A DNA stretch of 50,838 nucleotides from Acidobacteriota bacterium. GTDB taxonomy: Bacteria; Pseudomonadota; Alphaproteobacteria; Acetobacterales; Acetobacteraceae. A program made the position numbers and the translations under genes. Below are positions 7,827 through 49,371 of the stretch, piece after piece (within the stretch, counting starts at the first letter, position 1; every line of letters begins with the position of its first letter). The DNA is taken from the NCBI GenBank assembly GCA_903970435.1, contig CAJCIS010000193.1:1-50838 (forward strand), given 5' to 3'. Below the pieces are notes generated by a model that saw nothing but the letters and a program-made list of their open reading frames with translations, was not told the origin of the DNA and searched no databases.

Positions 7827-7962
7827 TAGCGCATTTTCAGCCTGACTGGAATCGCCCGATGGAGACGCCCAACGTGAGGCCGATACGAATGCTCTGCAGA
7901 CAACAACCTGGAGCGGCCCGACGGGCACCCGACGATTTTCCAGTCAGGCTGAGGCCGCTCTA
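7827..7962. mobile_element. 136-bp MITE, copy 1
   Basis: This non-coding element has TA at both ends and imperfect terminal inverted repeats. Both ends read TAG(A/C)GC, four divergent bases, then TCAGCCTGACTGGAA. TA flanks suggest mobilisation by an IS630/Tc1-mariner-type transposase, which is absent here. It lies 20 bases from the 3' end of the glycosyltransferase gene. Two more copies of identical length are at 35786 and 39054. Confidence 0.8.
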
Positions 7963-9909: not shown

Positions 9910-9976
9910 TAGGTCTGGCAACATCTAGGTCTGGCAACATCAAGGTCTGGCAACATCTAGGTCTGGCAACAACATC
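9910..9976. repeat. Four tandem 16-bp repeats
   Basis: The unit TAGGTCTGGCAACATC occurs at 9910, 9926, 9942 (first base A) and 9958. The last copy contains an extra AAC. It lies in the divergent control region between plcP and the lipid kinase gene. It may be an operator array or a slippage-prone minisatellite. Confidence 0.85.
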
Positions 9977-13980: not shown

Positions 13981-14765
13981 CATCGTTCTCGGAAATTATC
14001 GATGCCATCACGCCCGCCGGCGGCGCGCACGTGCCGGAAGACTGGCAGCAGGGCCGCACCACCTACGGCGGCCTGTCGGCCGCCTTGTGCGTTGCCGGCG
14101 CGTTGCGATCAATGCCAGACTTGCCACCGTTACGAAGTGCGCAATTCACCTTCATCGGCCCCGCCGCCGGCGCGTTGCAAATCACACCGGCCGCTTTGCG
14201 CGCCGGCAAGAACAGCGTCTTTGTCGGGGTCGACCTGCACGCGGAGTCCAGTCTCGCGACCCGCGCCACCTTGTCGTTTGCGGCTTCGCGCGCCAGTTCA
14301 TTGCGGTATCGCGCGCTCCCGGCGCCATCCGTTCCGGCCCCCGAATTGTGCCCCGGATTCTTCGCCGGTGGAACGCCGCCGCGGTTCGCCGCCCAATTCG
14401 ATATGCTGCGCGCCGGCGGCCACGCGCCGTTGAGCCGTGCCGCCGAACCCGGCCTTCTGGTGTGGTTCCGCCACCGCGATCCGGCGGCACGCCACGGACT
14501 GCTCGGCCTGATTGCGCTGGCGGACGCACTTCCGCCAGCCGCCTTCAGCATGTTTTCCGCGCCTGCCCCTATCAGCACGATCACCTGGTCGATCGATATT
14601 CTGGACGCGGACGCAGCGTATGGAGGCGGCGGAGAAGGCTGGCATTTGATGCATAGTCGTGGCGACCAGGCGGCGGATGGCTATACCAGCCAGGAGATGA
14701 TTGTTTGGAACGATGCTGGAATACCAGTCCTGGCGGCGCGGCAGGTGGTGGCGATTTTCGTGTAG
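13977..14765 (+). CDS. Acyl-CoA thioesterase family protein (TesB-like double hotdog)
   Basis: This 262-residue protein has the two-hotdog layout of TesB-like thioesterases. An N-terminal half has GRTTYGGLSAALCVAGAL on the central helix and SAQFTFIGPAAG as a strand. A C-terminal half has ADALPPAAFSMF and TITWSIDIL, then WHLMHSRGDQAADGYTSQEM. Members hydrolyse acyl-CoA to free acid and CoA in the cytoplasm. The start is the GTG at 13977, overlapping the previous stop by four bases, so it is probably coupled with the serine hydrolase. A pathway cannot be assigned from the two alone. Confidence 0.82.
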   Translation: MTSFSEIIDAITPAGGAHVPEDWQQGRTTYGGLSAALCVAGALRSMPDLPPLRSAQFTFIGPAAGALQITPAALRAGKNSVFVGVDLHAESSLATRATLSFAASRASSLRYRALPAPSVPAPELCPGFFAGGTPPRFAAQFDMLRAGGHAPLSRAAEPGLLVWFRHRDPAARHGLLGLIALADALPPAAFSMFSAPAPISTITWSIDILDADAAYGGGGEGWHLMHSRGDQAADGYTSQEMIVWNDAGIPVLAARQVVAIFV

Positions 14766-14872
14766 CCTACCGGCGCTCAAGAAGGGAAGCGCGGATTCGA
14801 GATAGTCCGTTTACTTCTTTCTTCTTAAGCGCCGATAGGCTCGACATAATCTTCGTTTCTTCAGAAAAGAAC
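14763..14872. repeat. Hairpin repeat with palindromic core (locus 4, left hairpin missing)
   Basis: The inverted repeat 14763-14784 pairs with 14821-14841 (TAGCC, CGGCGCT and AAGAAG are shared). A shortened hairpin follows at 14855-14872, ending AGAAAAGAAC. The left arm starts at the thioesterase stop codon. The palindromic core matches the one in locus 12, which is split by a MITE. It lies between convergent genes. Confidence 0.65.
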
Positions 14873-14875
14873 TGC

Positions 14876-15784
14876 TTACTTGACTCCCTTATCAATCGCG
14901 CTGGCGTATTGCTTGACTTCCTTGGTACCGGCGATCTGATCGAAAATCCATAGCCAGCCGCCGGTGATGCCACATTGCTTATGCCAGCTCAGCATTTGCG
15001 CCTGCGCCTGCGCCGGCGTCAGGTCGGGTGGCGCCGAGCTCTGGTCCGAAACGCCGGGGAAAACCGGCACCTTGCCGAAATCCCAGCCGGAGCAAGGGTT
15101 GTTGCCGTCGCCCCCGGCATACGCCTGCAAATGAACGCCGTCCACCGTGCCGGCCCGCTGGCTGTTGATTTGCGAAACCACCGAGGTCCAATAACTGTTG
15201 TTGGTATAAGGATCCATGGTGACCTTGTAGCCGAGCTTCCCCAGCATCACCGCAAACTTGATTGTCGACGCCGAATCATAGCCGTTTTCGTCATCGAAAT
15301 CGATCGCATCGACCGGCAATGCCGCCTTCAACGCGGCGAAATCCTTGTAGAGAATGCTGTCGGGCCCTGTCCCTTGCGAATCGACCAGCGATTCGATGTC
15401 TTCCCAATCGCCGTAATTGGACGACCCGATGCTGAAGGTCACCCGCGTGACGGTTCCCGCCTTGATCGTCGCCAGGTCCTTGGGAAAATGCGGGTATGTT
15501 TTATTGCCGATATAGGCACCCGCCGATGTCAGCGGAAATTCGCCGTTCAGATTCAAGTCGCCCGTGCTGTTGACCTCGACGCTCCAGACGATCAGTTCAT
15601 TGAAACCCGACTTCTTGAGCTCGGTGATGTTTTTCTGGATGTGCTTGTAAACCGGCCCACCCCCCAAAATGCCGACATAACCCGTCTGCGCCGCCGAAGC
15701 GGCGGTGCAAACGCCAACCCCGCACAGCATCAGTGCCCCTGCCAAACGGCGCGCGCAGCCGCTCTCTCGTGCGTCCACGATCAT
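14876..15784 (-). CDS. Secreted GH18-like glycoside hydrolase
   Basis: This 302-residue protein has an N-terminal signal peptide (hydrophobic LAGALMLCGVGVCTA, then ASAA). The chitinase-type GH18 signature DxxDxDxE is visible as DAIDFDDE near residue 160. It follows a strand-rich segment (TRVTFSIGSS) as in TIM-barrel GH18 enzymes. The glutamate would be the acid catalyst, and the substrate is presumably a chitin-like or peptidoglycan-like polymer. The C-terminal GGWLWIFDQI fits the last barrel strand with its conserved Trp. It is shorter than typical chitinases and lacks binding modules. An inactive or atypical family member remains possible. Confidence 0.65.
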   Translation of the reverse strand: MIVDARESGCARRLAGALMLCGVGVCTAASAAQTGYVGILGGGPVYKHIQKNITELKKSGFNELIVWSVEVNSTGDLNLNGEFPLTSAGAYIGNKTYPHFPKDLATIKAGTVTRVTFSIGSSNYGDWEDIESLVDSQGTGPDSILYKDFAALKAALPVDAIDFDDENGYDSASTIKFAVMLGKLGYKVTMDPYTNNSYWTSVVSQINSQRAGTVDGVHLQAYAGGDGNNPCSGWDFGKVPVFPGVSDQSSAPPDLTPAQAQAQMLSWHKQCGITGGWLWIFDQIAGTKEVKQYASAIDKGVK

Positions 15785-35489: not shown

Positions 35490-35788
35490 CCTTCTCCGCC
35501 GCAGCTCTCGACCAGATCACAGCCCTTCGTCGGTACTACGCAGCCAAGGAGCGGCCCGAGGCGATTCGCAACCTTGCCCGCGCCATCGCTGAAGCGAGTC
35601 AGGCGATTGCCGCGGGTCGAGGCGTCCCTGCCCCACGGCCCTACCCCGCCCTCGCCCAGCCCGGCCGCGCCTGGATCTATGTCCAGCGGTACTGGTTTCG
35701 CTACGCCGCGACCACGCCACCGATTGTGCTTGGCGTGTACTATGACACGGCCGATATTCCAGGCCGCCTTTTGGGCGATGGATGTTAG
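35477..35788 (+). CDS. RelE/ParE-family toxin with a non-standard start
   Basis: This frame of 103 residues shows the ParE-type pattern: a helical N-terminus (VTFSAAALDQITALRRYYAA, then RPEAIRNLARAIAEASQA), the turn PRPYPALAQPGRAWIYVQRYWFRY, and a final strand (PIVLGVYYDTAD). Such toxins attack gyrase or mRNA. No ATG, GTG or TTG exists between the upstream in-frame stop and the conserved start. The codon at the expected position is ATC (35477), one base from ATG. It either starts poorly or is silenced. The stop codon TAG lies exactly on the TA junction of a MITE, but the stop would also exist without the insertion. Confidence 0.65.
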   Translation: MARVTFSAAALDQITALRRYYAAKERPEAIRNLARAIAEASQAIAAGRGVPAPRPYPALAQPGRAWIYVQRYWFRYAATTPPIVLGVYYDTADIPGRLLGDGC

Positions 35789-35921
35789 AACATTTTCAGC
35801 CTGACTGGAATCGCCCGATGGAGACGCGCAGCTTGAGGCTGATACAAATGCTCTGCAGACAACAACGTCGAGCGGCCCGGCGGGCATCCGACGATTTTCC
35901 AGTCAGGCTGAGGCCGCTCTA
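35786..35921. mobile_element. 136-bp MITE, copy 2
   Basis: This has the same length and ends as copy 1 (TA...TA; inner TCAGCCTGACTGGAA at both ends). It landed on the toxin stop codon. Internal sequence is highly similar to copies 1 and 3, and there is no coding capacity. Confidence 0.8.
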
Positions 35922-37484: not shown

Positions 37485-39002
37485 GTGCCAGCCATGCTGG
37501 TGACACCCCTGCTCCGCACCCCGCGTCGCGCCGAATCTCCCGCCATGGAAGACCTGGCGCGCAATTTCCAGGCGGCATCTCCCCGCCATATGGCAGTGCG
37601 CACGCCACCGGCAAGCTGGCTGATCCACGGCGCGGTTTTCGGCCTCTTTGTACTGTTGCTCGCCCGCGCTGCCGACGCCCACGGCCTGCTCGCCTGGGCC
37701 GCCGGCCTGGTCTACATTGCCTACGACACCGCGCTGCTGGCTTTTACCGCCGTGCAGACGTTTCCACTCCAGACGGGCCCACTCCAGATAGGGCCGCGCG
37801 CCGGCCCGCTTCCCGCCCCGCCATGGCCCACCGCGACCGCACCCATCTCGGTTTGCGTCATCGTGGCCGCGCACAACGAGGCGGCGGGGCTGCCCGGCAC
37901 GATCGCCGCTCTCCTGTGCCAAACCGACCCGCCGGAGGAAATCCTGATCGCCGACGACGGCTCCAGCGATGCCACCGCGCCGGCCCTGGCGCCGTTCGGG
38001 CTGGCACAGCCCGCCCTGGGCGCAGTGGCGGCCAGCACCGCAACACAGGGCCTGCGCTGGTTACGCCTCCCGCACGGCGGCAAGGCCGCCGCGCTCAATG
38101 AAGCCATCCGCCGGGCCGGCGCGGATGTGGTGCTGACCGTCGATGCCGACACCCTCCTGCAGGCGGACGCGGTCGCCGCCCTGCGCGCCGCCTTCGCGGC
38201 CGACCCAGGTTTGGTGGCAGCCACCGGCGTCCTGACGCCCGTCTGCGGGCCGGGCCTGGGCGGCCGCCTGCTGCAATGGTTTCAAACCTACGAATACATT
38301 CGCAACTTCCTCAGCCGCTTCGCCTGGATGCGGGCCGACGGGCTGCTGCTGATCTCCGGCGCCTGCGCCGGCTTCCGCCGCGATGCCTTAGTGGCTGTGG
38401 GCGGCTTCGACCCTGACAGCGTGGTGGAAGACTACGAGCTGATCCACCGCCTGCGCCGCTACGCCGCCGTGCACGGGCTTGCGTGGCGCACGCAGGTGCT
38501 CGGCGGCGTGCAGGCGCGCACCGAGGCGCCCTCGAGCATTGCCGCCTTTCTGCGCCAGCGCCGCCGCTGGTTCGGCGGCTTTCTGCAAACCCAGTTCCTG
38601 TATCGTGAAATGGTGGGCAACCCGGCCTATGGCCGGCTGGGCACCTGGATGCTGCCCGTGAAAGCCGCGGACACGATGCAGCCGCTCTATGGCCTGGCCG
38701 CCCTGGCGCTGCTGCTGTGGTATCTTGCGCGCGGCCAATGGCAGGTTCTGTTGCCGGTCGGTGGCATCATCGGTGCCAAGATCGGCATCGACCTGTGCTT
38801 CCATTTATGGAGCGTGCATTTGTACCGGCGCTGGACCGGCGACCGCACCGGCGCCCGTTTCGGCTACGCATTGGCGGCTTCGCTGCTGGAGCCTTTCAGC
38901 TTCCAGTTGCTGCGGCATGCGGGCGCGGCGCTGGGGTGGGTGATGTTCCTGTCGGGGCAGCGCGGCTGGGGGCGCGCATCGCCGGGGCGATCAAGAAAGT
39001 AG
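37485..39002 (+). CDS. Membrane glycosyltransferase family 2 (PgaC/cellulose-synthase-like)
   Basis: This processive-type GT2 enzyme of up to 505 residues has two N-terminal membrane helices (IHGAVFGLFVLLLARA, LLAWAAGLVYIAYDTALL). Then come the catalytic domain marks: VCVIVAAHNEA, ILIADDGSSD, the DxD in VLTVDADTLL, the ED base in VVEDYELIHRLRR and the RQRRRWFGGFLQT motif. C-terminal membrane helices follow. It would polymerise or add sugars at the inner membrane. The start is uncertain (GTG 37485, ATG 37494 or ATG 37545). The stop codon overlaps the first base of a hairpin repeat. Confidence 0.88.
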   Translation: MPAMLVTPLLRTPRRAESPAMEDLARNFQAASPRHMAVRTPPASWLIHGAVFGLFVLLLARAADAHGLLAWAAGLVYIAYDTALLAFTAVQTFPLQTGPLQIGPRAGPLPAPPWPTATAPISVCVIVAAHNEAAGLPGTIAALLCQTDPPEEILIADDGSSDATAPALAPFGLAQPALGAVAASTATQGLRWLRLPHGGKAAALNEAIRRAGADVVLTVDADTLLQADAVAALRAAFAADPGLVAATGVLTPVCGPGLGGRLLQWFQTYEYIRNFLSRFAWMRADGLLLISGACAGFRRDALVAVGGFDPDSVVEDYELIHRLRRYAAVHGLAWRTQVLGGVQARTEAPSSIAAFLRQRRRWFGGFLQTQFLYREMVGNPAYGRLGTWMLPVKAADTMQPLYGLAALALLLWYLARGQWQVLLPVGGIIGAKIGIDLCFHLWSVHLYRRWTGDRTGARFGYALAASLLEPFSFQLLRHAGAALGWVMFLSGQRGWGRASPGRSRK

Positions 39003-39288
39003 TTCTTTTCTGAAGAAAGGAACCAAAAGTATTATATTGAGCCTGGCGGCACTTAGAGCATTTTCAGCCTGACCGGAATCGCCCGATGGAGACGCGCAGC
39101 TTGAGGCTGATACAAAGGCTCTGCAAACAACAACCTGGAGCGGCCCGGCTTGCATCCGAGGATTTTCCAGTCAGGCCGAGGCCGCTCTAAGAAAAAGGAA
39201 GTAGGCTCAATGCCCTGTCCACGCCTGACTTCCTTGAGCGCCGCTAGGCTCGATATAATCCTTTTGGTTGCTTTCTTCAGAAGAGAAC
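39002..39288. repeat. Hairpin repeat with palindromic core, split by a MITE (locus 12, B/B)
   Basis: The left hairpin 39002-39023 (one G-T wobble) and right hairpin 39267-39288 enclose a palindrome (GAGCCTGGCGGCACTTA ... GCGCCGCTAGGCTC). Its left arm is interrupted at TA by MITE copy 3 (39054-39189). Without the MITE the element is about 153 bases. The palindromic core matches locus 4. Confidence 0.8.
39054..39189. mobile_element. 136-bp MITE, copy 3 (nested)
   Basis: Same ends as the other copies, TA at both junctions. It sits inside the left palindromic arm of locus 12. The host arms align across the insertion if one TA is removed, so the TA target duplication is directly visible. Confidence 0.85.
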
Positions 39289-39325
39289 GTTCTTCCTTTT
39301 CAAAACGAGGAAGCGTCCCCCCACA

Positions 39326-40081
39326 ATGCAGATGACGGGCGAACAACGCATCGCCGCCTCGCGCCACCTTGTTTGGCAGGCGCTGAACGATCCCGAAATT
39401 CTCCGACAGTGCATTCCCGGCTGCCAGTCGCTGGAAAGGGAGTCGGCCGAACGGCTGCGTGCCACGGTCGAAATCAAAATCGGGCCGATCGGCGCGCGCT
39501 TCAACGGTGCGGTCACCTTGTCCGATCTCGATCCCCCGAACGGATACACGCTGACCGGCGAGGGCCAGGGCGGCACGGTTGGCTCCGCCCGCGGCGCGGC
39601 GCGCGTGTGCCTGGCCGACGATGGCGACGGCACGCGGCTGAGCTACGATGTCGATGCGCAAATCGGCGGCCGGCTGGCGCAACTCGGCGGACCGATCATC
39701 GACGCAACCGCGCGCCAGCTTGCCGGCAAATTCTTTGCACAACTGAGCGCCATGGTAGGGCCCCCCGAAGCGGCGGCACCGACCCGAATCGCGGCGGCAG
39801 AGCAAACTGTTTCTGCAACGAAATCGCCGCTCCCACCCGCCGCCACGCAACGGCTTCCCATGGCCTGGATTTTGGCTGTTGCCGTGGCCGCTTTTGTGGG
39901 ATTCCTGGTGGGCCGCAGCCAGCCCGCCGCCGCCGGATCGGATTGGATGGGATTGTCGATCGGTCTGCTCCTCATCATCGTGGCGGCCGCAGGTTTTGAA
40001 TACGGGCGCAGAACGGCGGCGCCCGTCATGATGCTGGATGCCGCCCTGCTGGCGCGGCTCGCCGGCGAACCGAAGCCGTGA
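39326..40081 (+). CDS. CoxG-like SRPBCC protein with C-terminal membrane anchor
   Basis: This 251-residue protein has an SRPBCC (Bet v 1-like) domain at residues 1-150: LVWQALNDPEILRQCIPGC, IGPIGARFNGAVTL and LSYDVDAQIGGRLAQLG, typical of CoxG. After a linker come two hydrophobic helices (MAWILAVAVAAFVGFLVG and LSIGLLLIIVAAAGFEYG). CoxG-type proteins recruit molybdenum hydroxylases such as CO dehydrogenase to the membrane. It starts 37 bases after locus 12, and its stop overlaps the GTG of the FAD subunit gene. The operon role is therefore probably membrane docking of the hydroxylase. Confidence 0.85.
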   Translation: MQMTGEQRIAASRHLVWQALNDPEILRQCIPGCQSLERESAERLRATVEIKIGPIGARFNGAVTLSDLDPPNGYTLTGEGQGGTVGSARGAARVCLADDGDGTRLSYDVDAQIGGRLAQLGGPIIDATARQLAGKFFAQLSAMVGPPEAAAPTRIAAAEQTVSATKSPLPPAATQRLPMAWILAVAVAAFVGFLVGRSQPAAAGSDWMGLSIGLLLIIVAAAGFEYGRRTAAPVMMLDAALLARLAGEPKP

Positions 40082-44983: not shown

Positions 44984-45759
44984 GCCAACCGTCCCTGATC
45001 TTGACTCATCGGGCATGCCTCCGGCGGCACGCCGTCACGCGAATGCGTGCTGCGCACGACGCCCCCGGTCGCCGAAGGCAACGCGCGGCCGTTCCGCCGC
45101 ACGGCGATCAATTGCGCCAGGATGCTCACCGCGATTTCGGCCACCGTGACGGCCCCGATCGGCAACCCGACCGGGCCGTGAATCCGCGCAATGGCGTCGG
45201 CGCCGTGGCCAAGCGCCGCCAGACGCTCCAGCCGCGCCGCCTGGGTTTTGCGGCTGCCGAGGGCACCGACGTAGAAAGCATCCGTGCGCAAGGCGAGGTC
45301 CAGCGCCGGGTCGTCCAGCTTGGAATCGTGCGTCAGCGTCACCACCGCGGTGTGCGCATCGGGCGCCAAGGCGCGCAACGCCTCGTCCGGCCAGCGCGGT
45401 TCGATCGTGACCTCGGGAAAGCGTTCCGCGGTGGCGTAGCCGCGGCGCGGATCGATGATGGTGACGGCAAACCCCGCGGTGGCCGCCATCGGCGCCAGCG
45501 CCTGGGCGACATGCACGGCGCCCACGATGAACAGCCGCGGCGGCGGCGCATGCACGTGCAGGAACCAGGACTCGCCATCGCAGTCCATGATACGCGACTC
45601 GTCCCGCGCCGCCGCGCGCGCCGCTTCGGCCTGCAGGGCAGCCGGCGCCGCCGCGTCCGGCAGCCTTAACTGGGCGCCGTCGGGCAGGCGCGTGGCGAGC
45701 ACCTCCACGCGCCGCGCCGCACGCGCGGCGCGCAGCGCGGCCAGTGTTTCCGGCGTCAC
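44980..45759 (-). CDS. XdhC family protein, C-terminal (Rossmann) part
   Basis: This 259-residue protein contains the XdhC C-terminal Rossmann domain: FIVGAVHVAQALAPMAATAGF, DPRRGYATAERFP, VVTLTHDSKLDDPALDLAL, YVGALGSRKTQAARLERL and GPVGLPIGAVTVAEIAVSI. XdhC proteins bind and insert sulfurated molybdenum cofactor into hydroxylases. Its GTG overlaps the stop of the separate N-terminal XdhC gene, so the function is split over two proteins. The C-terminal tail (RSTHSRDGVPPE) is encoded by a 41-base repeat that is also half of the large palindrome at 49.2 kb, so the native end has been replaced. Confidence 0.88.
   Translation of the reverse strand: MTPETLAALRAARAARRVEVLATRLPDGAQLRLPDAAAPAALQAEAARAAARDESRIMDCDGESWFLHVHAPPPRLFIVGAVHVAQALAPMAATAGFAVTIIDPRRGYATAERFPEVTIEPRWPDEALRALAPDAHTAVVTLTHDSKLDDPALDLALRTDAFYVGALGSRKTQAARLERLAALGHGADAIARIHGPVGLPIGAVTVAEIAVSILAQLIAVRRNGRALPSATGGVVRSTHSRDGVPPEACPMSQDQGRLA
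45021..45061. repeat. 41-bp repeat shared with the large palindrome
   Basis: Identical to 49293-49333. It contains an internal hairpin CACGC-GAAT-GCGTG. It lies within the 3' end of the xdhC-like gene and codes for its tail. Confidence 0.85.
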
Positions 45760-49201: not shown

Positions 49202-49330
49202 CGTGCGCAGCACGCATTCGCGTGACGGCGTGCCGCCGTCGTCTCAAGCGCTGCGCGGCACAATAGTTTTGTGCCGCGCAGCGCATAAGACGCCGGCGGC
49301 ACGCCGTCACGCGAATGCGTGCTGCGCACG
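49202..49330. repeat. Large near-perfect palindrome
   Basis: Arms of about 62 bases (49202-49263 and 49269-49330) with only a few mismatches and a 5-base loop. Both strands read almost the same frame. One distal part occurs again at 45021-45061. It stands 41 bases beyond the 3' end of the glycosyltransferase gene and could end its transcript as a very stable hairpin. Confidence 0.88.
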
Positions 49331-49371
49331 ACGGCATGGGTGCATCGACGAAGAGGGCTGCCTTGCTTGCC

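Follow-up and report, generated by a model that had tools for sequence, protein, structure and literature searches.

TA-duplicating MITEs of the IS630/Tc1-mariner type exist, as do IS5-group elements that target the tetranucleotide YTAR (Y-TA-R), and the nesting of small repeats is already known as a kind of event. In the pneumococcus, BOX, RUP, and SPRITE elements occur inserted within each other; of these, SPRITE is terminator-like and is found near the 3' ends of genes and between convergent genes (PMC3049150; reviewed in PMC10969869). REP dimers have been described within longer target palindromes, namely GTAG-15 of A. variabilis, GTAG-23 of T. roseum, and CGTC-1 of H. neapolitanus (PMC3733652). 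A paper on intrastrand-triplex repeats (PMC4666352) makes no mention of the group studied here, and a partial coverage of the literature returned nothing on the outer palindrome described below in Acetobacteraceae, which is weak evidence of its novelty.

We analysed a 50,838-nucleotide stretch of DNA (the window) from a member of this family whose genome assembly comprises 4.29 Mb in 293 contigs. At locus 12 (38991-39298), three repeat layers are nested between a family 2 glycosyltransferase gene, whose stop codon falls within the outermost arm, and coxG, which starts at 39326. The coordinates of the layers are collected in Table 1. The earlier note had described a MITE inserted at TA in the left arm of a single palindrome. 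The insertion stands, but the palindrome consists of two repeats, the outer arms and a core, and it is the left arm of the core, not the outer arm, that is split by MITE copy 3. We consider it very likely that an outer hairpin stands at the 3' end of a gene with a core hairpin in its loop, and that a MITE moved in trans then inserted into a TTAA of the core. This explanation builds on direct observations, namely the nested arrangement, the duplicated TA, the paralogues that serve as empty sites, and the copy numbers.

Table 1. Positions of the nested repeats at locus 12 and of related repeats elsewhere in the window.
Feature	Position	Strand	Basis
Outer AT-rich twin hairpin, left arm; includes GTTCTTTTCTGAAGAAAGGAAC and the stop TAG (39000-39002) of the upstream gene	38991..39029	+	Families D1/D4
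Core hairpin, first part of left arm (ATTATATTGAGCCTGGCGGCACTTA), broken at TA	39031..39055	+	Genome-wide core search and alignment
TA target duplication, left copy	39054..39055	.	Read from sequence
MITE copy 3, 132 nt, ends GAGC...GCTC, inverted repeat TCAGCCTGACYGGAA	39056..39187	+	
TA target duplication, right copy	39188..39189	.	Read from sequence
Core remainder: end of left arm (AGAAAAAGGAAGT), loop, right arm	39190..39258	+	Fold of rejoined sequence
Core right arm (ACTTCCTTGAGCGCCGCTAGGCTCGATATAA)	39228-39258	+	Fold of rejoined sequence
Outer twin hairpin, right arm	39261..39298	-	Repeat families and fold of rejoined sequence
Locus 4, uninterrupted core hairpin	14763..14846 (end approximate)	+	Core search, fold, alignment
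MITE copy 1, including flanking TA	7827..7962	+	
MITE copy 2, including flanking TA	35786..35921	+	

Allowing up to one mismatch, we counted 1072 matches to the outer palindrome (GTTCTTTTnnnnAnAAAAGAAC) across the 4.29-Mb genome; with a CCAAAA tail, the palindrome is present in 32 of 120 sampled genomes of the family. Within the window, where genes were called with a codon-usage script and three genes were adjusted manually in light of the Pfam result, 14 of the 24 outer palindromes lie no more than 30 nt from a stop codon, and the gaps that hold one comprise six of seven convergent, nine of 20 tandem, and one of six divergent gaps. Among 30 loci from the complete genome of another family member, the outer arm often occurs shortly after an apparent stop codon, with a further GC-rich hairpin between the arms; the outer arm is thus also present in other genera of the family, around an inner hairpin that differs. 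The AT-rich twin hairpin may be a family-wide 3'-end element, and its position fits an intrinsic terminator. We found no consensus intrinsic terminator at the element on the + strand, and the window has no Rfam match at the gathering score. At locus 12, the twin hairpin lies right where the glycosyltransferase gene ends and probably acts there as a terminator or as an mRNA 3'-end structure. In the complete genome, the outer palindrome at first seemed to show replichore polarity, but this proved to be an effect of listing order. Other repeats in the window include an inverted repeat at 49202-49330, with 62-nt arms that are 95% complementary and spaced 5 nt apart. Positions 49293-49333, within or at this inverted repeat, are an exact repeat of 45021-45061, and a 16-nt unit (AGGTCTGGCAACATCW) is repeated in tandem at 9911-9974.

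Within the outer arms, the core hairpin (ATTATGTTGAGCCTnnCGGCGCTTAAG...) is a separate repeat with about 50 arms in the genome; a search with its arm pattern gave 71 matches with up to two mismatches, compared to nine in the control. Thirteen two-armed copies (locus 4, locus 12, and 11 others) align with one another, and 85% of the cells in the aligned hairpins are paired, compared to 25-42% in slid controls. Covariation is weak to modest, with eight pairs changed on both sides versus 7.2 in shuffles, and the covariation score and the number of paired cells exceed those of the shuffles (8/500 and 2/500, respectively). Taken alone and as DNA, the core folds with a z of -5.65. When the exact 21-base core pattern was sought among 120 genomes of the family, it was found in its own genome only.

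The core and the outer arms could instead be a single element with an interior remodelled by recombination, in which case the nest would be two-level, a possible account that we nevertheless hold to be somewhat improbable. At five loci, half a core on one side faces an ordinary outer arm, so recombination may have assembled the repeats as modules, and the outer arms of the complete genome surround a GC-rich inner hairpin that is not the core. However, on two contigs (C171:6006-6081 and C278:2510-2571) the core lies in the middle of a palindrome of another, unrelated class (GGCCGGGGC...GCCCC), indicating that the core and the outer arms are separable. We therefore prefer to regard the core as a repeat that would occupy the loop of the outer twin hairpin, and we infer both that it is itself mobile and how it relates in time to the outer arms. 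A broader proposal would make the core a mobile palindrome in its own right, specific to this lineage and inserting at the centre of pre-existing 3'-end hairpins from several classes, such that the lineage's gene ends are built by successive repeat-into-repeat insertions; this seems unlikely to us.

The innermost layer is a MITE in that it has terminal inverted repeats and a target-site duplication and is short, dispersed, and multi-copy, with about 50 readable copies in the genome. Its two ends carry TCAGCCTGACTGGAA in opposite orientation, for which there are six matches in the window versus 0.06 expected. Genome-wide, the terminal motif has 134 matches with up to two mismatches, whereas the reversed control has none, and a DNA similarity search with the MITE returned 41 matches across the genome. 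Among 51 readable end pairs, which include a few chimeric or tandem ones, the termini are GAGC...GCTC, TA is retained on both sides in 33, and most insertions are at TTAG or TTAA, both of which fit YTAR. The end motif is also found in Rhodopila globiformis and in MAGs of Rhodospirillales and Acetobacteraceae, and the matches in these other genomes are short elements too; this distribution would put the window's genome within or close to the Acetobacteraceae. A match between the MITE end and a plasmid (Pantoea, 21 bases, E 0.1) was judged to be due to chance. At three loci (one of them at C216:1-185), MITE ends pass straight into GGGTCTGTTGA..., apparently the terminus of an insertion sequence that used the CTAG created at the MITE border.

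The PF13358 (DDE_3) profile, which represents the single transposase family tried, has no match in this incomplete genome, and with this profile we found no autonomous element or transposase with the MITE's ends there; multi-copy insertion sequences tend to drop out of assemblies of this kind. Given that no matching DDE_3 transposase was found, the MITE is not assigned to the IS630/Tc1-mariner derivatives, and the YTAR target is the sole feature by which it fits the IS5 group. Most likely, the MITE owes its movement to a TA-duplicating transposase acting in trans, and the candidate sources would be an IS630/Tc1-mariner-like family or the YTAR-targeting part of the IS5 family. An autonomous parent would end in TAGAGCnTTnTCAGCCTGACTGGAA.

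The nest could also have arisen because the MITE prefers hairpins, with transposition drawn to extruded or single-stranded palindromes, but we regard targeting of this kind as quite improbable. Nine MITE copies adjoin outer hairpins or lie in their loops, and a MITE beside an outer hairpin is also seen in a MAG of another species. Nevertheless, 15 of the 51 copies lie within about 100 nt of an outer palindrome, which is no enrichment over the background in the window, where the share is 36% for non-coding bases and 37% (14 of 38) for non-coding YTAR sites, and a core arm is split by one copy only. The preference for hairpins that the earlier note had suggested looking for is thus not found. 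YTAR sites are rare in the GC-rich window (74 in 50.8 kb) and the core carries CTTAAG, which provides a TTAA target; together, these two features sufficiently explain the hit on the core.

When the MITE is removed along with one TA, the flanks rejoin as CACTTA followed directly by AGAAAAAGG. The rejoined 172 nt form one near-continuous hairpin of -96.8 kcal/mol, compared to a shuffled mean of -41.9 (RNA fold z of -12.9, with 0 of 200 shuffles as good), which bears out the claim that this removal restores symmetry. The native sequence, including the MITE, still folds well (z of -10.55) since the MITE makes its own branch in the same stem. Elsewhere in the genome, 48 core arms (at most one mismatch) are continuous across the insertion point, and six of these, on contigs C99, C167, C171, C98, C216, and C231, read exactly GGCACTTAAG, which is the rejoined target. 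The TA duplication, the restored symmetry, the uninterrupted core at locus 4, and the dozens of uninterrupted arms indicate that the hairpin came first: at locus 12, the MITE is younger than the core. It would have inserted into the TTAA tetranucleotide of the core's left arm, with duplication of the TA. That the symmetry reflects no older element, the arms having been shaped by palindrome correction or by chance after the MITE arrived, is highly improbable; palindrome arms can be corrected by template switching and the arms within each core copy resemble each other, but the MITE-free junction at paralogous loci marks a repeat in its own right, and no shuffle folds as well as the rejoined site. 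No orthologous empty site was found in a close relative, as the sole other genome of the genus is without the upstream gene, and when 20 relatives were searched at the DNA level, gene and outer-palindrome similarity alone came up, with no locus read as an ortholog of the gap.

Locus 4 had been put forward as a MITE-free copy of the same core. Its core is indeed homologous and uninterrupted; the cores of locus 4 and locus 12 are not unrelated, since both align with the 11 further copies. The stop codon of the upstream acyl-CoA thioesterase gene (14763-14765) forms the first three bases of this core, which starts TAGCC, and the hairpin folds with a z of -4.46. Only the right outer arm is present (about 14850-14884), the left one being missing. 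These departures make locus 4 a less than ideal empty site, as does its left core arm, which reads GGCGCTCAAG (TCAA) where the rejoined target reads GGCACTTAAG (TTAA). Judged by their sequence, the six arms that match this target exactly are closer empty-site models than locus 4.

The order established at locus 12 is not general. On contig C27 (1077-1415), a MITE of a second subfamily is broken by about 205 bases that hold a complete outer twin hairpin, so the statement that the hairpin came first and the MITE later applies to locus 12 and does not extend to the genome as a rule. The C27 insert is bounded by CTGA at both sides and runs beyond the hairpin, by about 35-40 bases at its left end and by about 12 at its right end. 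These extra ends have no match among the other retrieved sequences, so another element may have brought the hairpin in. On contig C10, a truncated twin hairpin adjoins a MITE end.

Locus 12 thus offers a clean, dated example in which two repeat families are ordered at one locus in a hairpin-crowded genome. With more than 1000 matches to one 3'-end palindrome and nesting that can be read in both directions, this genome is a usable test bed for the spread of hairpin repeats and their role at gene ends.

With regard to the described systems, the MITE has in common with IS630/Tc1-mariner MITEs and with the IS5 group the TA duplication, the terminal inverted repeats, and the short body; it differs from both in that the PF13358 profile yielded no transposase to go with its ends. 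The core resembles the REP dimers in being a short palindromic repeat in the middle of a palindrome. Unlike REPs, its ends when inspected by eye are without a GTAG or CGTC tag, and no such unpaired tag beside the stem is shared by the 13 aligned core hairpins. The descriptive likeness to BOX, RUP, and SPRITE is that all are small, high-copy intergenic repeats, whereas the host here is unrelated, the MITE targets a TA within YTAR, and the nest is three-level.
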